DNA of 64,000 nt, taken from assembly GCA_021228405.1 (NCBI GenBank), contig JAJQRF010000001.1:1-64000 (forward strand), read 5' to 3'. The translations under genes were made by a program, and so were the position numbers. The notes below the pieces were generated by a model that saw nothing but the letters and a program-made list of their open reading frames with translations, did no database searches and was not told where the DNA came from. This document shows, piece by piece, positions 14,404 to 53,865 of the stretch (position 1 is its first letter; each line of letters begins with the position of its first letter). Source of the DNA: Pyrinomonadaceae bacterium. Lineage in GTDB: Bacteria > Acidobacteriota > Blastocatellia > Pyrinomonadales > Pyrinomonadaceae.

Positions 14404-15756
14404 GTGTCGATAAAATCAGTTCACATTACAAACTATTACCACAAAAATTCGGGCGGTATCAGCACCAGTTTTAATAATCTGCTTGCCGCCGCCGAACGGC
14501 ATCAGCGTTATGTTCGCCTGATCGTTCCGGGCGAAGCGGAAGCCGTCGAAGAAGTCAATAAATTTGCGAAAATCTATTACGTTCCCGCCAAATTTTCGCC
14601 TGTTTTCGACAAACGCTATCGGCTTCTTCAGCCTTGGCAATATATGCCGAACGACTCGCCGATTCGCAAAATTCTGCTTGCCGAAATGCCCGATATGATC
14701 GAAGTCACTGATAAATACACGATTTCGATGCTCGGCGCGATGGTTCGCATCGGCAAATTCAAACAACTCAACCGCCCGATGCTCGTGCATTTCAGCGCGG
14801 AACGCATGGACGACAACATCGCTTCGTTTATGACGAAATCTTCTTTCGGCGAATGGCTGGCGCGGCGCATTATCGGCAATTACACGCTCGCAATTTTCGA
14901 TTTTCACATCGCCAATTCGGTTTACACGGCGCAGGAATTTTACAAAGCCTACAAAAAAGAAGAAAACGCGCGGCGCAACGATTGGTTTTTCAATAAAGCG
15001 TGGCAATTTTTCAAGGCTCCGCGCATTCCCGTCGAAGAACGTATCTACGTTTGTCCGCGCGGCGTGAACGCGGAAGTTTTTCGTGCGGACAGAAAAAACG
15101 ACGCGGTCAAAAAAGCGATGCGCGAACGGGCGAAAATTCCCGCCGATTCGATCGTTCTGCTTTATGCGGGACGCATTTCGCCCGAAAAAAACATCGGACT
15201 TTTGCCCGAAATGATGAAATTTCTCGCGCAGGATTCCAAACACGATTACCGACTTGTAGTTGCTGGCGCAGGACCGCAGGAAGATTTTTTACGCGAAGAA
15301 ACGGCGAAGAATTTTCCCGGTAAAATCATTCAGTTAGGGCATCTCGATAAGGAAACGCTTGCCGATTATTACGCGAACTGCGATGTTTTCGTGCATCCGA
15401 ATCCGAAAGAACCGTTCGGCATCGCGCCGCTCGAAGCAATGGTTTCGGGCGCACCGACCGTCGCGCCGAATTCGGGCGGAATTTTAAGTTATGCGACCGA
15501 CGAAAACGCGTGGCTGATGACTCCGACGGGCGCGGAGTTTGCGAAAGCCGTCCGCGAAATCGTCGAAAATCCTGACTTACGAGCGAGAAAAGTAAACAAC
15601 GCGATTCTGACCGCACTCGACAACACACGCGAAAAATCGACCGACAACCTTTTCGCCGCTTACGACAAAATGTATGCGGACTTCCAACGCCGAAAGGAGC
15701 TTTTCACCGACATCGAAAAGGCGAAAACCTATGATTTTTCAAAGGAAGTTTTATAG
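14404..15756 (+). CDS. Family 4 glycosyltransferase
   Basis: 450 residues, GTG start. The N-terminal acceptor domain opens VHITNYYHKNSGGISTSFNNLL. The donor domain carries LLYAGRISPEKNIGLLPEMM, YRLVVAGAGPQ and the signature FVHPNPKEPFGIAPLEAMVSGAPTV, with the EPFGIAPLE motif that binds the nucleotide sugar. It differs clearly from the GT4 at 11590, so the two probably add different sugars or act on different acceptors. It starts 6 bases after the Uma2 gene, but the functional link there is doubtful. Downstream comes a phased repeat array, not another gene of the unit. Confidence 0.85.
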   Translation: MSIKSVHITNYYHKNSGGISTSFNNLLAAAERHQRYVRLIVPGEAEAVEEVNKFAKIYYVPAKFSPVFDKRYRLLQPWQYMPNDSPIRKILLAEMPDMIEVTDKYTISMLGAMVRIGKFKQLNRPMLVHFSAERMDDNIASFMTKSSFGEWLARRIIGNYTLAIFDFHIANSVYTAQEFYKAYKKEENARRNDWFFNKAWQFFKAPRIPVEERIYVCPRGVNAEVFRADRKNDAVKKAMRERAKIPADSIVLLYAGRISPEKNIGLLPEMMKFLAQDSKHDYRLVVAGAGPQEDFLREETAKNFPGKIIQLGHLDKETLADYYANCDVFVHPNPKEPFGIAPLEAMVSGAPTVAPNSGGILSYATDENAWLMTPTGAEFAKAVREIVENPDLRARKVNNAILTALDNTREKSTDNLFAAYDKMYADFQRRKELFTDIEKAKTYDFSKEVL

Positions 15757-15772
15757 AGCAGAATAAAAAATT

Positions 15773-15829
15773 GTCCAACAAACTTCAATTTATTGATTAT
15801 CGCAGGCAAAAAACAAACTGAAGTTTGTT
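15773..15829. repeat. Inverted repeat (CAACAAACTTCA type)
   Basis: CAACAAACTTCA near 15776 and TGAAGTTTGTTG near 15819 are inverted copies separated by about 30 bases. A related palindrome (TCAAACTGAAGTTTGA) lies at 46765-46780. It follows the stop of the GT4 gene closely and could fold in the 3' end of the mRNA. Confidence 0.6.
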
Positions 15830-15836
15830 GAACATC

Positions 15837-16015
15837 ATCGATTTACGCGAATTTTCTCAAAATTATCTGATTTTCTCCAAATTTATGGATTTTTCGGCAA
15901 ATTTCCGAGATTTTTCACGGATTTATGAGAATTTGCGCAAATTCAGCTGATTTTTCGCAAATTTAGACGATTTTCCTCGAATTTGGCAATTTTTTCGTAA
16001 CTTCATTGATTTAAT
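15837..16015. repeat. Array A: 20-bp degenerate tandem repeat with 10-bp phased T-tracts
   Basis: About nine head-to-tail units of 20 bp. Each unit has two half-units beginning ATTT or TTTT, and the T-tracts fall every 10 bases almost without drift from 15841 to 16011. A typical unit is GATTTTTCGCAAATTTAGAC. Such phasing of A/T tracts with the helix predicts intrinsic bending. It fills the spacer between a GT4 gene and the permease gene. Units differ at many positions, so the array is old or is held by a function that tolerates variation. Confidence 0.8.
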
Positions 16016-16058: not shown

Positions 16059-17156
16059 ATGCTCGAATTGGTTTTAGCAAATCTGAGAGTCCGCCCGTTT
16101 CGCACGCTGATTAGCGTGGTCGGGGTCGCGTTGGGCGTGGTTCTCGTCGTTTTATTTACCGGCTTGGCGAAGGGAATGTCGGAAGATATGGTCAAACGCG
16201 CCTCGAACTGGAAGGCGGAGATAGTGTTCACGCGCCCGGGCGGAATGGATGCTTCAAGCTCGAACACTTCTCTTTCAACGACTTATGCCGAACGGCTTTT
16301 GCAGATCGAAGGCGTCGAATCGACCGTTCCCGTCATTCGCTATATCACGCCGAACCCGAAACAGCGTTGGGGCGTTCAGCAGATCGACGGCATCGATTGG
16401 GAACCATTCGCAAAAATGAACGATATGAAGCTCGTGCAGGGACGCGGCGCAACAGCAGTCGATGAAGTGATTTTGGACGAAAGATACGTCAAGGACGAAA
16501 AAGTAAAACTCGGCGATAAGATCGGGATTTTCGGCAAAAGCTACACGGCGGTCGGCGTTTTCTCGCCGCCTTCGGGTGCGCGCATCAAGATGTCGCTTTC
16601 CGCGATGCAGAATGCGCTCGAAGCCCCGAATAAATGTTCATACATTTTAGTTAAATTGAAACAGGGCGCGAACGTTGACGAAGTAGCGGCGCGAATCGAT
16701 CAGGCTTTGCCCGGAAATAAGATAAATTTAACGAGAGATTTAATCATCGACGCGCAAGACCGGATTCCCGCACTCGGCACGTTTTTACGCGTTTTGGTCG
16801 GCTTGGGCGCGTTCGTTTCGACGATCTTCGTCCTGCTTTCGATGTATACGACGATCACCGAAAGACGCAAGGAAATCGGGATTTTGAAATCGCTCGGCGC
16901 GTCGAAAGGCTTCATCATCAAAGTTATCGAAGGCGAGGCATTTCTGATCGGCGTGCTCGGCGTTTTGCTCGGTTTCATCGTCGCTTTCGCCGCGTCTTAT
17001 CTGATCGGCGATTTCTTTGAATTGGTTTTCAGCTTCAGTTCGGGCTGGATCATCACGGCAACCGTCATTGCCATCGGCGGAAGTCTGTTCGGCGCGCTTT
17101 ATCCCGCGTGGAAGGCATCGGGAATCGATCCGGTCGAAGTGATGGTCAATGAATAG
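16059..17156 (+). CDS. MacB/FtsX-type ABC transporter permease
   Basis: 365 residues with the usual order: an N-terminal helix (VRPFRTLISVVGVALGVVLVVLFTGL), a periplasmic MacB-like domain (about 50-235), and three C-terminal helices of the FtsX domain (near 245-350, including KEIGILKSLGASKGFI). The protein ends YPAWKASGIDPVEVMVNE, the classic C-terminus of the family. These permeases couple ATP hydrolysis to movement of lipids, lipoproteins or peptides in the envelope without being pores. No ATPase gene is next to it, so the partner must be encoded elsewhere. Confidence 0.88.
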   Translation: MLELVLANLRVRPFRTLISVVGVALGVVLVVLFTGLAKGMSEDMVKRASNWKAEIVFTRPGGMDASSSNTSLSTTYAERLLQIEGVESTVPVIRYITPNPKQRWGVQQIDGIDWEPFAKMNDMKLVQGRGATAVDEVILDERYVKDEKVKLGDKIGIFGKSYTAVGVFSPPSGARIKMSLSAMQNALEAPNKCSYILVKLKQGANVDEVAARIDQALPGNKINLTRDLIIDAQDRIPALGTFLRVLVGLGAFVSTIFVLLSMYTTITERRKEIGILKSLGASKGFIIKVIEGEAFLIGVLGVLLGFIVAFAASYLIGDFFELVFSFSSGWIITATVIAIGGSLFGALYPAWKASGIDPVEVMVNE

Positions 17157-24364: not shown

Positions 24365-25932
24365 TTTTCGTTTTCCACGAGTTCGCCGATCTCTTTTTGC
24401 AAAGTTTGGCGTTGAACAAGAAGCCTTAAAAATAAAGCGCGCTGGCGAAACAAAAGCCACGCGGATTTTATCCAGATATTCAAATCTATCAGCGTTTCCG
24501 ACGAACGAAGCGCGATGTAGCCGCACAGGATCGTCAGCGGAATCGACAAAAGCGCGATCTGCCAACCGTAAAAATACAGAAAAACACCTGCCGAGATCAG
24601 CCACGTGAGCGGCATAAAGATCATCGCGGCGAGGATTTTCGAGGTCGAACCGGCGGCATCGACATCGTGCGTCGTGACGGTTTGACCGAGCAGATTCGAG
24701 AAAACGTAAGCGGGCGAATGAATGACCGCGCCGAGAAGCGCGAACGGTGCGAGAATTATCAAAACCAACACGCGCAGAATCAAATATCTGAAAACATACG
24801 CGGTCGGATGCTGTAAGACCGAAAGGCTTTCCGCCGTCACGCCGCTGGCTTCGAGTTTTGCTTCGTAGCGTTCGATGCGTTCGTTGAGTTCGCGCATTTT
24901 TTGCGGGTCGTTTTGGGCTAAGAGTTCGTATTTTTTCGCCAAATCCTGCAAACGTCCGAACGAACGCGTGAGCGTATCCTTGAACAAAAGATTTTCGTAA
25001 ACCGATGAAAACAACGCTTCGGCTTTGAGAATCGCGTCGAGTTCGTTTTGCGATTCGAGGTTGAGCGTCACGTTTCGGAGCGCGTTTTCGATCTTTGCGT
25101 TGAGCGCGTAAACGGCTTCGCGCGGCGGTTCGCCGTTTTCATCGAGTGCAACGGGTTCGACCTCGATGATCTCGCCGTAACGAATCAACGCTTCGCTCCG
25201 AAACGAAGTTTTCGAGGTGTAATACAAACCGACAGCCATCAATTTGAGAGATTTTGGATTTTGGATTTTGGATTTTGGATTTGAAGAAAGTTGAGCATTG
25301 CCTGACTCTAAAACACCCGCTGACTCGGAAGATATTGACAAATTCACAGTTTCGCCGTGTCCCTGCGTCTCCTCTTCTCCTCTTTTCCTCTTCTCCTCTT
25401 CTTTCCCGAATCCCAACGCGCCGAGCGCGATGCGTGCCGCGCCGGTTTTGAGCGGTTGAAGTTTGGTTTCGTTGTGCGAGATTCCCTCGGGGAAAATGGC
25501 GATACAGCGGTTTTGCGCGAGCAATTCGTAGCAATTTTGAAAGGTTTGGACGTTTTTCCGCATATCGCCCGTTGCATCGACGCGCCGGAAGACGGGCAGA
25601 ATCTCGAACATACGGAGCAAATATCCGGCAACGGGAATGTCGAAAAGCGTCGATTTGGCAAGAAACGAAACGCGCCGTGCGAGCGAAACGAAAACGAGCG
25701 CGGGATCGACCAAGCCGTTCGGGTGATTGAGCACGAAGATCAACGCTCCGTCCTTCGGCACTTTTTCGACATTGACGGCTTCGATACGGCGAAAGAAAAG
25801 CCGCAGAGCGATGCTGATAACGGCGTGCAGAACGCGCCTAACGAACGAACCTTTGCCCAGAAAGATCATCTGCCAAAGGCTCAAAACCCTGACGCTTTCG
25901 ATTTTTTCGCTGTCGTAAACTTCCCTTTTCAT
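24361..25932 (-). CDS. PlsC-like phospholipid/glycerol acyltransferase with a repeat-derived insert
   Basis: 523 residues. The acyltransferase domain (about 45-260) has the HX4D catalytic motif as NHPNGLVDP and the substrate motif FPEGISHNE. It should transfer acyl groups to lysophosphatidic acid or a similar acceptor at the inner membrane. The C-terminal half has a helical stretch and two to three membrane spans (LVLIILAPFALLGAVI and a second hydrophobic pair). Between the FPEG motif and the rest of the domain, about residues 180-228, is a low-complexity insert. Part of it is encoded by tandem 7-base repeats (TTTTGGA type at 25249-25283) and part by a C/T-rich run (25366-25405). Confidence 0.82.
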   Translation of the reverse strand: MKREVYDSEKIESVRVLSLWQMIFLGKGSFVRRVLHAVISIALRLFFRRIEAVNVEKVPKDGALIFVLNHPNGLVDPALVFVSLARRVSFLAKSTLFDIPVAGYLLRMFEILPVFRRVDATGDMRKNVQTFQNCYELLAQNRCIAIFPEGISHNETKLQPLKTGAARIALGALGFGKEEEKRKRGEEETQGHGETVNLSISSESAGVLESGNAQLSSNPKSKIQNPKSLKLMAVGLYYTSKTSFRSEALIRYGEIIEVEPVALDENGEPPREAVYALNAKIENALRNVTLNLESQNELDAILKAEALFSSVYENLLFKDTLTRSFGRLQDLAKKYELLAQNDPQKMRELNERIERYEAKLEASGVTAESLSVLQHPTAYVFRYLILRVLVLIILAPFALLGAVIHSPAYVFSNLLGQTVTTHDVDAAGSTSKILAAMIFMPLTWLISAGVFLYFYGWQIALLSIPLTILCGYIALRSSETLIDLNIWIKSAWLLFRQRALFLRLLVQRQTLQKEIGELVENEK

Positions 25933-27093: not shown

Positions 27094-27315
27094 TAATTAC
27101 ACGTGTTTTTGTCGATTTTCATCCGTTTTTTAGAATTTCCTTCTGTTAGCGCCGATTTTCACGTGTTTGTGATGATTTTCATCGTGTTTGTGACGATTTT
27201 CATCCGTTTTTAGCGATTTTCATCCGTTCGCGGCGATTTTCACTCTGTCGGGGACGATTTTCATCCGTTTTTGGCGATTTTCACCTGTTGGCGGCGAATT
27301 TCATTTATTTTTGTC
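27094..27315. repeat. Array B: 20/21-bp degenerate tandem repeat, GATTTTC type
   Basis: Ten head-to-tail units. The core GATTTTC (GAATTTC in two) starts at 27114, 27133, 27154, 27174, 27195, 27215, 27235, 27256, 27276 and 27296, so the spacing alternates between 20 and 21 with one 19. The consensus is about GTTNNNGRCGATTTTCAYCY. It lies between the acidic-protein gene and the lysS tail fragment. The 20/21 alternation keeps the units on the same face of the helix. Confidence 0.85.
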
Positions 27316-28283: not shown

Positions 28284-30221
28284 CTATTTACTTTCAGGAC
28301 GCATATGCGGGAAAAGAATCACGTCGCGAATCGAATGTTTGTTTGTCAAAAGCATCACGAGGCGGTCGATGCCGATTCCGATGCCGGCGGCGGGCGGCAT
28401 TCCGTAACTCAGCGCGCGAATGTAATCTTCGTCCAAAACCATCGCTTCCGCGTCGCCGCCTTCGCGTTCCTTCATCTGATCGACAAAACGCTCGAACTGT
28501 TCCTGCGGGTCGTTCAATTCCGAAAACCCGTTCGCGCATTCCATCCCGTTAATAAAAAGCTCGAACCGCTCGGCAATCTGCGGATTTTCAGGCGAAGCTT
28601 TCGACAAAGGCGAAATCGATTTCGGGTAATCAATGATGAATGTTGGCTGGATTAGATATTCTTCAACAAAATCTTCAAATACTGAAACAATATCCTTAGA
28701 CCTTTCTATTTCCGTTAAGTTTATTCCCGCAAATTTTTTAACGATTTCTTCCCATTTACTATCAATTAATTTATCAGCTTCTTCTTTGCTTAATTTCTCT
28801 TTTGGTTCATCTCCGCCGTCGAAATAATAAACTTCGTTATATAATTCATTTTCAATCCACCATAAAAAATCACTAAGCACTCTGATGTTTGCGCCTTTGT
28901 CTAACCAGTTGCTTATTTCTTCTGTTATATAAGATTTCGCTATTCCACTTTGGCGAGCAATAGCTTCTTTCATTGTCAATCGTTCAAACTTGGAGAAATC
29001 AATGATATTTACAGCTTCGTTGAGTATAATTCCATCCATTTCAAGAACAAATTTTTGAGAAACACCCTTATATTTCACTTGCAAACTTCCGCCTGTCGCT
29101 TTTTGCACCGATTCTTTGATCATCGCTTCGGCGAAATCCATCATTCCGTTGACATCCATATAGGCGCAATAGAATTCGAGCATCGTAAATTCGGGATTGT
29201 GTTTATACGACAAACCTTCGTTGCGGAAATTGCGGTTGAGTTCGTAAACCTTTTCAAAACCGCCGACCGTCAGGCGTTTGAGATAAAGTTCGGGCGCGAT
29301 GCGCGCATAAAGCGGAATTCCCAACGCTTCGTGAAAAGTTTCAAACGGAGTCGCCGCCGCGCCCGTCGCTTTCGGCGTGAGCATCGGCGTTTCGACTTCG
29401 ATGTAACCCGCATCGTCGAGAAATCGGCGCATTCCGCTAATCAATTTCGCCCGCCGCTCGAAAACTTCGCGCGTCGTCAAACCTTCGTGTTCGACCTGAA
29501 GGCTCGACGCGATGAGATCGGCATAACGGTAACGGCGGCGCAGTTCGGGATCAGCAATGCCGTGCATCTTGTCGGGCATCGGGAGCAGAGCTTTTGAAAG
29601 AAACTGAAACGTTTCGACGTGCACCGAAAGTTCGCCCGTGTTGGTCAAAAACAAAAATCCTTCCGCGCCGACAAAATCGCCGTGATCGAGAAGTTTGAAA
29701 ACTTCCCAACCGTCAATAGTGGTCGGTGGTCGGTGATCGGCGGTCGGTTCATTTTCTTCATTCTGACCACTGACCACTGACCACTGACCACTATTATAAA
29801 TGGCTTTTGCATCATCGCGCCGAACGTAAATCTGCAAACGATTAATGCCGTCGCTCAGGTGAACGAACGCCGCTTTGCCCATCACACGCGGCGGAACGGC
29901 GAGGCGACCCGAAATCCGTGCATTGCCAAAGGCTTTTAGTTTTTCATTGAGTTGCGCCTTTAATTCTTGGTCGGGCTTTTCGCCTTCGGGCGTTGCGTCT
30001 TTAAGTTGTTTGACGATTTCCGCGACAGGCGCAAACTTCAAAAGATTCGAGATCGTATCTTCAACTCCCGAAATCTTCGAGCGTTCGTATTTATTCGGAT
30101 AAGAATTTCCGATCAGAGCTTCCAACGCCTTCAAATGCTCGACGCGCGCCTGCACCTGATCGTTGTCTTCGATAATTTCCGCTTCAATGATTGTTTTTGT
30201 GTTCGTATTCGCAATAGACAT
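28284..30221 (-). CDS. lysS: Lysyl-tRNA synthetase, class II, with two insertions
   Basis: 645 residues from the ATG at 30221, clearly longer than the roughly 500 of typical bacterial LysRS. The OB-fold anticodon domain (about 90-240) precedes the catalytic core: motif 2 as [22 protein letters not shown] and motif 3 as [28 protein letters not shown]. Extra sequence comes from two places. First, about residues 142-170 are encoded by inverted seven-base repeats (29713-29796, GTCGGTG/TGACCAC type). Second, residues about 377-530 lie in an AT-rich block (28632-29090) and include an unusual segment with [24 protein letters not shown]. It charges tRNA-Lys. A copy of its 3' end is found at 27520-27597. 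Confidence 0.92.
29713..29796. repeat. In-frame inverted heptamer repeats inside lysS
   Basis: The left arm is built of GGTCGGT-like and the right arm of ACTGACC-like seven-base units that are complementary to one another. It is read through in frame as GQWSVVSGQ and related residues. It sits in the OB-fold domain of lysS, presumably in a surface loop. Confidence 0.8.
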
Positions 30222-35039: not shown

Positions 35040-36095
35040 ATGAAATTTATCAACTCCGCAATTTTTTCGATTGCAGTAATTTTAATTTTGAATCTTTCCG
35101 CCTTTGCGCAGGAAACACAGGTCAAGGTCGTCGATGAGGTCGTCGCCGTTGTCAACGACGGTGTGATCACACTTTCACGCATCAAACGCGAGATGAAAAG
35201 CGTCGTCGATTCGTTCGTTGCCGAAGGCAAACCGCGCGAAGAAGCGGAAAAATTGGTCGAAGAAAAGAAAGGCGAATTGATCGCAGGTCTAATCAACGAA
35301 GAGCTTTTGATTCAAAAAGCCAAGGAAGCCGGTTTGGATAAAGAGATCGATGCGAATATCAACCAGAGATTTATTGATATTATGAAACAGCAAAATATCA
35401 AAACCATCGAAGAACTTTATCAGGTGATGGAATCGCAAAACGTCAACCCGCAGGAAATCCGTGAAATCTGGCGCAAACAGGCGACCCGCGAATCGGTTAT
35501 CAACCGCGAAGTAAATTCAAAAATTTATTGGGGCGTAAGCTCGAAAGATTTGAAGGAATATTTTGAAAAGAACAAAGAAAAATTTACCAAGCCCGAAAAA
35601 GTTACTTTAAGCGAGATTTTCCTGAGTTTTGCCGGACGCAATGAAGCCGCCGTCCGCGAAAAAGCGAAACAGCTTGTCGCCCAGCTGAAAGGGGGCGCGG
35701 ATTTTCAAAAACTCGCCGTCGAAAACTCCGACCGTGAAAATGTCGCGCAAAATAAAGGAAAGGTCGATACTTTTACGGTGAAAGACCTCGATCCGAAATT
35801 TGCCGTTGCCATCAAGGATTTGAAAGCGGGCGGAGTCACGGAACCGGTCGAGATCGATCAGGTCGGCATCGAAATTCTTCGCGTCGATGAAAGAACCGCC
35901 GCGAGCAACGAGTCGTTTTTCGACGAAAACGCCGTCCGTCTGGCGTTGATGCAGGAACGCGCTCCGGCTGAACAAAAGAAATTTATGTCAACCCTGCGTC
36001 AGGAAGCATACATCAAGATCAACGACGAATATCGCCCGATCGTTTCGCCGATTCTTTTTGCCGACGAAAGACGCGCCGAAAAAACCGATAAATAA
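35040..36095 (+). CDS. SurA-like periplasmic peptidyl-prolyl isomerase/chaperone
   Basis: 351 residues. A signal peptide ends near residue 23 (SAFAQ). A SurA-type helical N-domain follows (EVVAVVNDGVITLSRIKREM, with GELIAGLINEELLIQKAKE). A single parvulin/rotamase domain occupies about 175-290 (KPEKVTLSEIFLSFAG, KQLVAQLKGGADFQKLAVENSD, GKVDTFTVKDLDPKFA). Such proteins help outer-membrane proteins fold, which fits the large barrel proteins in this window. A good ribosome-binding site (AAGGAG) lies 8 bases before the ATG. Confidence 0.88.
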   Translation: MKFINSAIFSIAVILILNLSAFAQETQVKVVDEVVAVVNDGVITLSRIKREMKSVVDSFVAEGKPREEAEKLVEEKKGELIAGLINEELLIQKAKEAGLDKEIDANINQRFIDIMKQQNIKTIEELYQVMESQNVNPQEIREIWRKQATRESVINREVNSKIYWGVSSKDLKEYFEKNKEKFTKPEKVTLSEIFLSFAGRNEAAVREKAKQLVAQLKGGADFQKLAVENSDRENVAQNKGKVDTFTVKDLDPKFAVAIKDLKAGGVTEPVEIDQVGIEILRVDERTAASNESFFDENAVRLALMQERAPAEQKKFMSTLRQEAYIKINDEYRPIVSPILFADERRAEKTDK

Positions 36096-36170
36096 CTGAT
36101 AACTGATAACTGATAACGGAAAATGGAAAATGATTCAAAAATTTTCCATTTTCCGTTTTCCGTTTTACAC
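36093..36170. repeat. Heptamer repeats forming a perfect 15-bp hairpin
   Basis: AACTGAT occurs three times, followed by CGGAAAATGGAAAAT (36117-36131), whose exact inverse ATTTTCCATTTTCCG lies at 36141-36155 with a 9-base loop. T-rich sequence follows. It may also serve as terminator of the SurA-like gene. Confidence 0.75.
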
Positions 36171-39025: not shown

Positions 39026-39139
39026 TTTATTCTCCTCTCTTCATAAAAATTAGATTGCCGCTAAAACTTTAAATAATATTCATCCGGCTTTACGCTCAAT
39101 TAATATTTTGTAGAACTCACCTCATATATATTTTTTAAG

Positions 39140-39202
39140 CGTTCAGAGTCCCGCCTTCAGGCGGCGATGCTTAGAAAAAAAGTCTTCTAAGGAACTCTAA
39201 AC
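39140..39202. repeat. Inverted-repeat element, GAGTCCCGC family, copy 3
   Basis: GTTCAGAGTCCCGCC (39141-39155) on the left and GGAACTCTAAAC on the right form the ends. The first 26 bases are an exact inverted copy of 26648-26673, 12.5 kb away. Confidence 0.72.
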
Positions 39203-39235: not shown

Positions 39236-39424
39236 ACTCATATGGACTGTGGCGTTTCCATCTGGACTGTCGCATTTCCATCTGGACTGTCGTATTTTCA
39301 TCTGGACTATGGCGTTTCCGTCTGGACTGTTTTGTTTTCGTCTGGACTATAGTGTTTTCATATAGACTGTGCCGTTTTCGTATAGCCTGTGCCAAGCTCG
39401 TTTAGACTCTAAGATTTCCATTTT
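39236..39424. repeat. Array C: exact 20-bp period tandem repeat, TCTGGACTGT type
   Basis: Nine units of exactly 20 bases. The GGACTGT element or its variant starts at 39244, 39264, 39284, 39304, 39324, 39344, 39364, 39384 and 39404. A typical unit is CATCTGGACTGTCGCATTTC. The middle units are the most alike and the last two are decayed. It lies between the XRE gene and the carboxypeptidase-regulatory-domain gene, both on the minus strand, ending only about 10 bases from the latter's stop. Confidence 0.88.
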
Positions 39425-43679: not shown

Positions 43680-43902
43680 AAAACACCGTGCAAGTGCCTC
43701 GGTGCGGCTTGCAAGCGTCGTGGTGCGCCGTGCAAGTGCCTCGGTGCGCGTTTTTTCGTCGTGGTGCGGCTTGCAAGTGCCTCGGTGCGGACTGCAAGCG
43801 TCGCGGTGCGCCGTTTAGTGACGTGGTGCGGACTGCAAGCGTCGTGGTGCGGGATTTTTTAACGTGGTGCGCCGTGCAAGTGTCGCAGTGCGGATTTTTT
43901 CA
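43680..43902. repeat. Array D: 20/21-bp GC-rich tandem repeat, GGTGCG type
   Basis: Ten units; GGTGCG (AGTGCG in the last) starts at 43701, 43722, 43743, 43763, 43784, 43805, 43825, 43846, 43866 and 43887. Spacings are 21, 21, 20, 21, 21, 20, 21, 20, 21. A typical unit is GCAAGTGCCTCGGTGCGGCTT. Two sub-types (GCAAGTGCCTC and GCAAGCGTCGT) tend to alternate. Some units have the left half replaced by a T-run. It lies between the receptor and a coiled-coil gene on the same strand. Confidence 0.88.
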
Positions 43903-44836: not shown

Positions 44837-46708
44837 ATGACCAACGCAATCAATTTAGACGGCGACGATAATATCGTCGTTCAAGGTTCCGAAAACGTAA
44901 ATATTACCGTCAACAAGATTCTCTCGAAATCGCACGACTACAATACAATGCTCGGCGAATTGCGCGAACAGCAGGAAATATTCGACGGCATCTCGGAAGA
45001 AAATTTGAGTCTGCGACTGAAAATCAGCACAAAGATAAATCAGTTAAACGACAGCATCGAACAATTCAAACGCGAGATCATCCAATTAGCCGAAACCTTC
45101 GACAAGCTCGAAGTAAACAGCGAACGACTTCAGCAAGCCCGCGAATTCTTTGAAAAAGGCGAGATCGGCGAAGCCCGCGCCCTGCTCAACGACGACAACG
45201 AAAGACTCGCCGACGAAGAAACCCAACTCTGGCGCAAACGCGACTATTACGAAACCGAGATCGAACCCAAACTAATCGCCAAAGCCGAAGAACGCTATAT
45301 CCAAGCCTTACTCAGCCGAACCGATTACGCCAACCCGAACTGGTTCGCCGACACCCGCAACTATTTCAACCTTTCGATCAAAAGCTACCCGACCAAAGAT
45401 AATATTTTTCAATTTGCATACTTTCTCAAAGACCATAATCAATTTGATGAAGCCGAAAAATATTATTCAAAATATCTGAATGATTTTTCAAACCAAATCT
45501 CGGAAAACGAATACGCAGATGCCTTGAACAATCTGGCTAATTTGCATCGAAATCAAACCCGTTATGACGAAGCCTTGACGGAATTTGAAGAAGCGTTGGC
45601 AATCAGACGCAAGTTGGCGGAAACGAATCCGAACACCTTTTTGCCTGATGTGGCGATGACCTTGAACAATCTGGCTATTTTGCATCAAGCTCAAAACCGC
45701 TATGACGAAGCGTTGAGTGAATATGAAGAAGCCTTGACAATCTATCGCAAGTTAGCGGAAACCAATCCGCATACTTATTTACCTAATGTTGCCACGACCT
45801 TGAACAATCTGGCTGTTTTGCATCAAGCTCAAAACCGCTATGACGAAGCGTTGACGGAATTTGAAGAAGCGTTGGCAATCAGACGCAAGTTGGCGGAAAC
45901 GAATCCGAACACCTTTTTGCCTGATGTGGCGACGACCTTGAACAATCTGGCTATTTTGCATCAAGCTCAAAACCGCTATGACGAAGCGTTGCGTGAATAT
46001 GAAGAAGCCTTGGCAATCTATCGCAAGTTGGCGGAAACCAATCCGCAGACCTTTTTGCCTTTTGTTGCCACGACCTTGAACAATCTGGCTATTTTGCATG
46101 CCGATCAAAACCGTTATGACGAAGCCTTGAGCGAATATGAAGAAGCCTTGGCAATCTATCGCAAGTTGGCGGAAACCAATCCGCATACTTATTTGCCTTT
46201 TGTGGCGATGACCTTGAACAATCTGGCTGTTTTGCATGCCGATCAAAACCGCTATGACGAAGCCTTGAGCGAATATGAAGAAGCCTTGGCAATCTATCGC
46301 AAGTTGGCGGAAACCAATCCGCATACTTATTTGCCCGATGTGGCGATGACCTTGAACAATCTGGCTCTTTTGCATCAAGCTCAAAACCGCTATGACGAAG
46401 CCTTATGCGAATATGGAGAAGCTTTAGAGATTAGAGAATCATTGGCGGAAACCAATCCAATGGTTTATAAAGTTAAAGTTGCTCAAACCAATTATAATCT
46501 GGCAATACTTTATCAAGACGATTTGCCTGATCGTGATAAATCTATTTCGTATGTTTTAACGACTATTGCGATTCTTTTAGAAATCTCGGATGTAGTTATT
46601 TATACAAGGAAATATTTGGAAGCCTCTATTAACATTCTGAAAAAATGGGGTTTGAGCGATGAAGAAATTGACCGAATGATCGCGGAAAAGATGAAAGAAA
46701 GTGAGTAA
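44837..46708 (+). CDS. Tetratricopeptide protein with seven near-identical 46-residue repeats
   Basis: 623 residues from the ATG at 44837. The start INLDGDDNIVVQGSENVNITVNKIL is a short beta element of the kind (DGDNIVIQGV...ITVN) often seen at the N-terminus of multi-domain bacterial conflict or signalling proteins; this is an inference from resemblance. A charged helical region follows (about 45-160). Then come kinesin-light-chain-type TPRs of 46 residues (NNLAILHQAQNRYDEAL.EYEEALAIYRKLAETNP) whose DNA starts at 45524, 45662, 45800, 45938, 46076, 46214 and 46352, exactly 138 bp apart. The copies differ little, so they were multiplied or homogenised recently. No signal peptide. Partner unknown. 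Confidence 0.8.
   Translation: MTNAINLDGDDNIVVQGSENVNITVNKILSKSHDYNTMLGELREQQEIFDGISEENLSLRLKISTKINQLNDSIEQFKREIIQLAETFDKLEVNSERLQQAREFFEKGEIGEARALLNDDNERLADEETQLWRKRDYYETEIEPKLIAKAEERYIQALLSRTDYANPNWFADTRNYFNLSIKSYPTKDNIFQFAYFLKDHNQFDEAEKYYSKYLNDFSNQISENEYADALNNLANLHRNQTRYDEALTEFEEALAIRRKLAETNPNTFLPDVAMTLNNLAILHQAQNRYDEALSEYEEALTIYRKLAETNPHTYLPNVATTLNNLAVLHQAQNRYDEALTEFEEALAIRRKLAETNPNTFLPDVATTLNNLAILHQAQNRYDEALREYEEALAIYRKLAETNPQTFLPFVATTLNNLAILHADQNRYDEALSEYEEALAIYRKLAETNPHTYLPFVAMTLNNLAVLHADQNRYDEALSEYEEALAIYRKLAETNPHTYLPDVAMTLNNLALLHQAQNRYDEALCEYGEALEIRESLAETNPMVYKVKVAQTNYNLAILYQDDLPDRDKSISYVLTTIAILLEISDVVIYTRKYLEASINILKKWGLSDEEIDRMIAEKMKESE
45524..46489 (+). repeat. 138-bp tandem repeats within the TPR gene
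   Basis: Seven copies with an exact 138-bp period. The stretch TTGAACAATCTGGCT opens each copy without change. Variation is limited mostly to a few codons (HQAQ/HADQ/HRNQ, AIRRK/AIYRK, NTFLPDV/HTYLPFV). Confidence 0.9.
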
Positions 46709-51203: not shown

Positions 51204-51998
51204 ATGGAAAATACGCCGATAAACAAATCCGAATTGACCGATTCAAACGATTTTCAGATCGTTGACGGCGAGCTTCTCGACGTTTCGAGCGGCGCGGAGA
51301 TCGAACAATTCGACGAAGAAAAGACCATCGTTCACGCCAAAAACCAAAAACCAAAAACCAAAGACCAAAAACCGAATTCGACCAATCAAAAGACTTATCT
51401 GCTTTTACCGTTTCTGTTTCTGACGGTCGCGCTTTTGGGCGGTTTGCGGTTTTCTTCGCCCGATAATGCTTTTGTTTTTTTGCGTCCCGCGCTCGTTTGT
51501 CTGATCTTTGCGGCGATTCTGCTGTTTTTGTTTGCGCGGGCAAATTTGATAAAACTCGAAGGCTGGTTTTCGGAAGATTTTTCGAGTTTGAAGAATGCCG
51601 CCAATGCGTCGGTGATAATTACGCTTTTTGCGGCTTCGGTGCAGGTTTTCAATTCTCTTTTGCCCGAACGCGGTTTCCCGTTTTGGGTCGTCGCATTCTG
51701 TTTTTTCTGGACGCTTTGGAACAATATTTTCGCCGAATTCGACACGAAAAAGCTGATAAAAAGCCTCGGCGCGATGTTCGGTTTGGCGTTTGTGGTGAAA
51801 TATCTGGTGCTGGCAAATCTGACCGCCCCCGCGAATGAAAGCTGGCTGAAATCGCTCTGGGAAAATCCGGCGCAGGAGTTTTTTACAAATATTTTCGATC
51901 TTCCGCGTTTCGCGGCGGCAACGGGTTATGTGCAGTTTTTTACGCTGATCTTTTATTTGATCGGCTTGTTCTTATTACCGAATTCAACGAAGAAATAG
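51204..51998 (+). CDS. Multi-pass membrane protein with a repeat-encoded linker
   Basis: 264 residues. A polar N-terminal 45 residues is followed by a stretch encoded by AACCAAA-type heptamers (51340-51380; read as NQKPKTKDQKPN). Then come six or so hydrophobic segments (LLLPFLFLTVALLGGL, PALVCLIFAAILLFLFA, SVIITLFAASVQVF, FWVVAFCFFWTLW, FTLIFYLIGLFLL). No family recognised. It begins 46 bases after the TPR-like gene. Confidence 0.6.
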   Translation: MENTPINKSELTDSNDFQIVDGELLDVSSGAEIEQFDEEKTIVHAKNQKPKTKDQKPNSTNQKTYLLLPFLFLTVALLGGLRFSSPDNAFVFLRPALVCLIFAAILLFLFARANLIKLEGWFSEDFSSLKNAANASVIITLFAASVQVFNSLLPERGFPFWVVAFCFFWTLWNNIFAEFDTKKLIKSLGAMFGLAFVVKYLVLANLTAPANESWLKSLWENPAQEFFTNIFDLPRFAAATGYVQFFTLIFYLIGLFLLPNSTKK

Positions 51999-53651: not shown

Positions 53652-53700
53652 CGTTAAAATTGATCGACAGTCATTCGTAATAATTCGAGTCAGACGTTGG

Positions 53701-53865
53701 GAATTTGTCGAATTCCGCGGGAATTTGCTAAATTCTCGCGGAATTTGACGATTTCACGCGGAATTTGACGATTTCCCGCGGAATCTGGTAAATTCCCGCG
53801 GAATTCGGCAATTTCCCGCTGTTTTCGGCAAATTCCCGCAGAATTTGACGATTTTTACGGAATCG
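53701..53865. repeat. Array E: exact 20-bp period tandem repeat, GAATTTGACG type
   Basis: Eight full units begin at 53701, 53721, 53741, 53761, 53781, 53801, 53821 and 53841 without any drift; a ninth (GAATCG) is cut. A typical unit is GAATTTGACGATTTCCCGCG. It lies between convergent genes and runs into the last codons of the C25 peptidase gene, whose stop codon (53855-53857) is inside the final unit. Confidence 0.88.

Follow-up and report, generated by a model that had tools for sequence, protein, structure and literature searches.

A 20-bp tandem array with A/T half-sites in 10.0-bp register behind a GT4 glycosyltransferase gene of Pyrinomonadaceae, a putative left-handed coil former or protein-wrapping site

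Analysis of the spacer downstream of a GT4 glycosyltransferase gene in a Pyrinomonadaceae genome (G000) identified a tandem array, referred to here as array A, whose type is, judged by sequence comparison, kept at this fixed site in at least two genera. In arrays of this type the A/T half-sites are 10.0 bp apart over up to 440 bp, and indels are rare relative to substitutions. With confidence a little below even, array A is interpreted here as a non-coding, spacing-constrained 20-bp tandem element of a dispersed family, and as a putative left-handed coil former and/or protein-wrapping site. The identity and conservation of the array family are well supported, and the mechanism is one that we infer. 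The window, i.e., the whole 64-kb stretch of DNA that was analyzed, lies at the beginning of a contig of 1.19 Mb in a genome of 5.72 Mb, and the features around array A in window positions are the following.

Positions 14404 to 15756, plus strand: GT4 glycosyltransferase (Glycos_transf_1), assigned by domain and synteny.
Positions 15772 to 15834, no strand: imperfect inverted repeat, 87% complementary in its 23-nt arms, located after the GT4 stop codon and before array A.
Positions 15841 to 16015, plus strand: array A, about 8.5 degenerate 20-bp units with the consensus ATTTATGAGATTTTTCGCAA and an A/T phase of 10.0 bp.
Positions 16059 to 17156, plus strand: MacB/FtsX-type ABC transporter permease, assigned by domain and orthologues.

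An earlier note on this DNA had placed the array between a GT4 gene and a permease gene, and the identities of the flanks agree; array A itself lies outside called genes. The same note had reported ATTT or TTTT at nearly every 10-base step from 15841 to 16011, and these tetramers were indeed found at the start of 14 of the 17 steps (rows from 15841). Steps with at least three T in their first four bases also numbered 14 of 17, above the maximum of 12 (mean 6.7) in 5000 dinucleotide-Markov simulations. The A/T Fourier power at a period of 9.95-10.0 was 31.6, whereas 1000 simulations averaged 3.5 and never exceeded 17.8; because the power at 10.5 bp was only 1.3, the spacing is 10.0 bp and not 10.5 bp. 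The description of array A as the strongest phasing in the window held in rank, as array A has the highest power (31.8) of any 180-bp segment in the 64 kb, but in practice it is tied with positions 53700-53857 (31.5). TRF returned array A as a degenerate 20-bp tandem repeat, and matches at lags 20, 40 and 60 numbered 65, 64 and 59 per 100. The true unit is 20 bp because half-units of the AAATTT type alternate with those of the GATTTTTC type. Mismatches to the consensus amounted to 24%, with 0 indels in the 160 bp scored, and the dyad within the unit was not significant (p = 0.06). The tandem unit of array A carries the GATTTT(C)/AAATTT half-sites of the Pyrinomonadaceae 20-bp family in the register of that family, and its A/T tracts stay in phase over many turns. 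The adjacent inverted repeat has a related hairpin-forming copy at C4:186983-187051 (83%), and none was seen in the GT4-permease gap of G074, a genome of another genus.

Forty-six arrays of 20- or 21-bp period were detected in 1.66 Mb of G000, five of them in the window, with starts at 15841, 27102, 39238, 43686 and 53700. Those other than array A are listed below.

Positions 27102 to 27304, plus strand: array B, 20-bp family, CGATTTTCATCCGTTTTTAG type.
Positions 39238 to 39420, plus strand: array C, 20-bp family (CATTTTCATCTGGACTGTGG), without 10-bp A/T phasing.
Positions 43686 to 43900, no strand: array D, units of about 20.7 bp (41-bp dimers), module-swapped.
Positions 53700 to 53857, plus strand: array E, 20-bp family (GGAATTTGACAAATTCCCGC), A/T power of 31.5 at 10.0 bp, flanked by convergent genes.

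Control periods returned next to nothing, heptamer repeats aside, and an indel-tolerant TRF search assigned a period of 20 or 21 to 47 of 55 intergenic arrays. No non-coding 20/21-bp array was found in 1.01 Mb sampled from relatives; at the density of G000, this sample should have contained about 27. The arrays fall into two classes, 8 near 20 bp and 38 at 20.5-21 bp, and the 10-bp A/T harmonic was dominant in 7/8 of the former versus 5/38 of the latter (p = 1e-4). The 20-bp arrays have a single register, in which the core GATTTTCA is followed by an AAAT/TTT-type half-site, and 8 of their 28 pairs scored above the 99th percentile of the null, with 0.28 expected. Comparison of the units thus indicates that the 20-bp arrays form one homologous, dispersed family whose register and unit sequence are common to different loci and genera. 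The 21-bp arrays comprise several unrelated unit families, mostly without A/T phasing and without a common core. A 10-bp A/T harmonic dominates in the 20-bp subclass alone, and curvature was therefore rejected as a common property of the whole 20/21-bp class; the property common to the class is two-turn spacing.

The larger class (C4:1-864000 and C7:200001-1000000 of G000) is mostly non-coding, often with a dyad per unit. The units of array D, in which A/T phasing at half the unit was absent, look as if they were built from interchangeable modules (TGCAAG/TTTTTT/TTTAG with TGCCTCGG/CGTCGTGG, etc.), and across arrays the mismatch correlation between neighboring columns declines from 0.19 at distance 1 to 0.05 at distance 9, as would result from an exchange of short blocks. 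Amongst the other repeats, a dispersed REP-like family (75-83% identical, 55-115 bp) was seen at 39125-39202 and at more than 20 places in G000; one copy adjoins array C and others lie near further arrays. Many heptanucleotide tandem repeats occupy spacers (25250-25282, 29763-29792, 36092-36117, 51337-51373 and elsewhere) and are also present in relatives, and a 138-bp repeat with 6.6 copies and 88% match at 45518-46422 appears by eye to be TPR-like coding sequence.

A serious rival to our reading, and a real if minority possibility, is a neutral minisatellite, in which slippage or unequal recombination in lax spacers, rare copying and decay would produce the arrays, and the period and curvature would be by-products of the founding unit. 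The arrays do contain 42- and 63-bp higher-order structure, which together with the correlation of neighboring columns resembles repeated tandem duplication. Paralogous arrays at distant loci point in the same direction, and amongst the 21-bp arrays whole-array copies were found, e.g., C4:573227 and C7:688454 (264 bp, 73%). Arbitrary founder lengths, however, should yield many periods, and only 20 and 21 were found besides the 7-bp repeats. The arrays resemble bacterial minisatellites and VNTR loci in being intergenic tandem repeats of short units with structure of a higher order, and differ from them in their restricted periods, in units that are about 25% diverged yet almost free of indels, and in the conservation of array A at an orthologous site in another genus.

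The rarity of indels bears on the same question. Compared to their own consensus, the arrays had 27 indels and 2712 mismatches (ratio 0.010). The corresponding indel/mismatch ratio was 0.025 for pairs of paralogous arrays and 0.119 for dispersed repeats of the flanks, so that indels are approximately 5-12 times rarer than in flanking repeats, contrary to what a minisatellite origin would lead one to expect; this comparison is biased, as detection at fixed lag disfavors indel-rich arrays, and the flanking repeats used as control may be indel-prone.

Further evidence was provided by relatives, which by permease orthology are Pyrinomonadaceae/Acidobacteriota MAGs. The 699-bp GT4-permease gap of G074, a locus reached by synteny and not by array similarity, contains an array of the array A type in the same orientation, with 22 units of 20 bp, no indel, an A/T period of 10.05 and a power of 67. 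The half-units at the two junctions are alike (GATTTATGAGAATTTTCCGA in G074 and, as an example from array A, GATTTATGAGAATTTGCGCA in the window). The GT4 and permease proteins of G074 and G000 are 76-77% identical in amino acids. At such a distance, spacer DNA that is free of constraint can normally no longer be aligned, and the persistence of the unit type at this orthologous site therefore speaks against neutral decay. The array in this gap is the strongest result of the analysis. The remaining orthologous gaps are 0-78 bp long, or longer without phasing (powers at most 5.0). Array A is missing in most relatives, including G019 (gap of 61 bp) and G016 (gap of 11 bp), so that it is dispensable or recently spread, and this patchy presence across genera is what the minisatellite explanation would predict. 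In the permease tree G019 groups with G000 and G074 (93/95) and has no array, so the array was either lost in G019 or gained twice. Additionally, an orthologous counterpart of array B was found in a third genus (G023), between lysS and a RraB-like gene, with 14 units and an A/T period of 10.35, and the sites of arrays B and F in G074 had no array.

A sequence model of three units (R1), trained on phased arrays, detected some 15 members of the 20-bp family in G000. In a search of 119 genomes of the bacterial family it gave matches in only three others, G023, G074 and G013, and the phasing of its matches is not independent evidence because of this training. Array A, itself in the training set, was matched at 15939-15984 (E 5.5e-4). 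Unit subtypes held in common with G000 included the array B type (locus L208 of G074), the type of C4:127292 and C7:928012 (L209 of G074) and that of C7:819626 (L204 of G013). Apart from these matches of R1, a hit in G016 (L164) was rejected as an array, as it reads as coding sequence.

The core GATTTTCAY is kept across loci and three genera while the rest of the unit has diverged, and this, combined with the two-turn spacing and a unit dyad in about 23 of the 46 arrays, could be expected of arrayed sites for one sequence-specific oligomerizing protein, with two-turn repeats of iteron- or centromere-like logic and A/T phasing that merely reflects the site. We consider this explanation improbable, since the 21-bp arrays have no common core and one protein cannot serve them all, and since no similar DNA was detected for arrays A and B amongst 72,556 plasmids or for array B amongst 50,697 phages. 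The same searches led us to reject a plasmid or phage origin. In plasmid iterons, direct repeats about 20-22 bp long follow one another at a strict two-turn spacing. The arrays resemble them as direct repeats of similar length and spacing, and differ in having many chromosomal copies in spacers and no match amongst the plasmids searched.

The genomic position of the arrays was also informative. The 43 non-coding arrays lie in 18 convergent, 22 co-directional and 3 divergent spacers, and relative to a baseline of 200-600 bp spacers, delimited by a home-made gene caller (33 convergent, 148 co-directional, 71 divergent), they are over-represented in convergent spacers (p = 3e-5) and under-represented in divergent spacers (p = 0.002). 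Two arrays fall within called ORFs. Tolerance of insertions in convergent spacers would be in keeping with a minisatellite. For most arrays a stop codon lies no more than about 120 bp from the array start, and an intrinsic-terminator detector applied from stop to array scored 40/255, a figure to be read with the detector's failure to separate true 3' ends (to which this count refers) from controls (26/291). Location behind stop codons, together with the dyads in many 21-bp units, could fit a functional RNA (an array of 3' UTR hairpins) or a repeat-coding peptide, which we regard as very improbable. The orientation of the array unit is independent of gene direction, the unit dyads showed no compensatory changes (52 double Watson-Crick changes vs 44.9 in shuffles), and the window gave no Rfam match. 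As for a peptide, a 20-bp period breaks any frame and the 21-bp arrays have no 3-base periodicity of column variability; coding heptad repeats were rejected for array A on the first of these grounds.

Our preferred reading, an element constrained in its spacing, draws on the predicted shape of the DNA. The minimum end-to-end/contour ratio of array A over 105 bp was 0.63 in a Bolshoy-type wedge model (shuffled mean 0.86) and 0.56 in a De Santis-like model (shuffled mean 0.93), both with p <= 0.005 against dinucleotide shuffles. The earlier note had named a bend no greater than that of random sequence as the outcome that would count against it, and the calculations gave the opposite. Its marked static bend is upheld insofar as the calculated bend exceeds that of shuffled sequence, but the predicted shape is a left-handed coil and no single planar bend. 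With a period of 10.0 bp on a helical repeat of about 10.5 bp, the bend direction rotates along the array, and both models gave a left-handed coil for arrays A, B and E and for the G074 array; an ideal 11-bp repeat gave a right-handed coil in both, the sign convention having been checked on ideal helices. In the two models arrays A, B and E exceeded shuffled sequence, the curvature of array C was weak and model-dependent, and array D was not curved. Array A ranked top in the De Santis-like model; in the Bolshoy model array B was more curved, and array A was the 20th of 1824 windows. In the sampled genome, coding and spacer DNA alike have a bulk AA/TT period of 11.3-11.55 bp.

The sequence data suggest that exact spacing may matter for DNA coiling or binding, with a putative role in either. 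Fixed spacing would then be the selected property, either because it shapes the DNA or because it permits cooperative wrapping. On a helix of about 10.5 bp, an A/T repeat of 10.0 bp would form a left-handed coil, which could store negative writhe, pin a plectoneme or absorb supercoiling in the spacer behind the gene. Curved DNA pins plectonemes in single-molecule work, where about 70 bp of curvature suffices in vitro (PMC6301789). The array could also, or instead, offer a row of near-equivalent sites for a left-handed wrapping protein (HU-like) or a cooperative binder, and a DNA-wrapping protein would be an equally good candidate partner. A histone-fold protein is an unlikely partner; PF00808 was absent in eight genomes (G000, G074, G023 and five others), and control archaea were positive.

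Discussion of curved DNA in bacteria usually concerns either a weak statistical signal at 11 bp or single promoter bends. REP/BIME elements have a known gyrase role. Phased A/T DNA and AA/TT periodicity of about 11 bp are known in bacterial spacers, and in E. coli curved DNA has been described on the downstream side of genes (PMC516772); it is disputed whether the periods seen in genomes are a reflection of supercoiling (PMC7537859). Array A is like curved phased A-tract DNA in having A/T tracts near the helical repeat in a spacer and calculated curvature above random, and is unlike the usual bacterial period of about 11 bp in its 10.0-bp spacing on a tandem 20-bp family conserved between genera. 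REP/BIME elements are dispersed in spacers at gene 3' ends (PMC3733652), a location that the arrays share along with a proposed supercoiling role, but those are interspersed palindromic units of 20-40 bp, whereas the arrays are tandem 20-bp direct repeats and array A is not palindromic. The combination of features seen in the arrays was not found in the openly licensed papers that were searched, where nothing was found on tandem repeats in Pyrinomonadaceae either.

A broader reading, which we hold to be rather unlikely, is that the arrays belong to a class of spacer elements selected for helical spacing, in which divergent 20/21-bp units would set superhelix handedness or provide a wrapping platform behind genes, the 10.0-bp subclass being left-handed against an 11.4-bp background. 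The GT4-permease junction of two genera retains up to 44 consecutive A/T half-sites in 10.0-bp register, against a period of about 11.4 bp in the rest of the genome. Selection on DNA shape or helical spacing, rather than on sequence, in a bacterial spacer thus becomes directly testable, as does the possibility that a left-handed coil former may buffer transcription-driven supercoiling.
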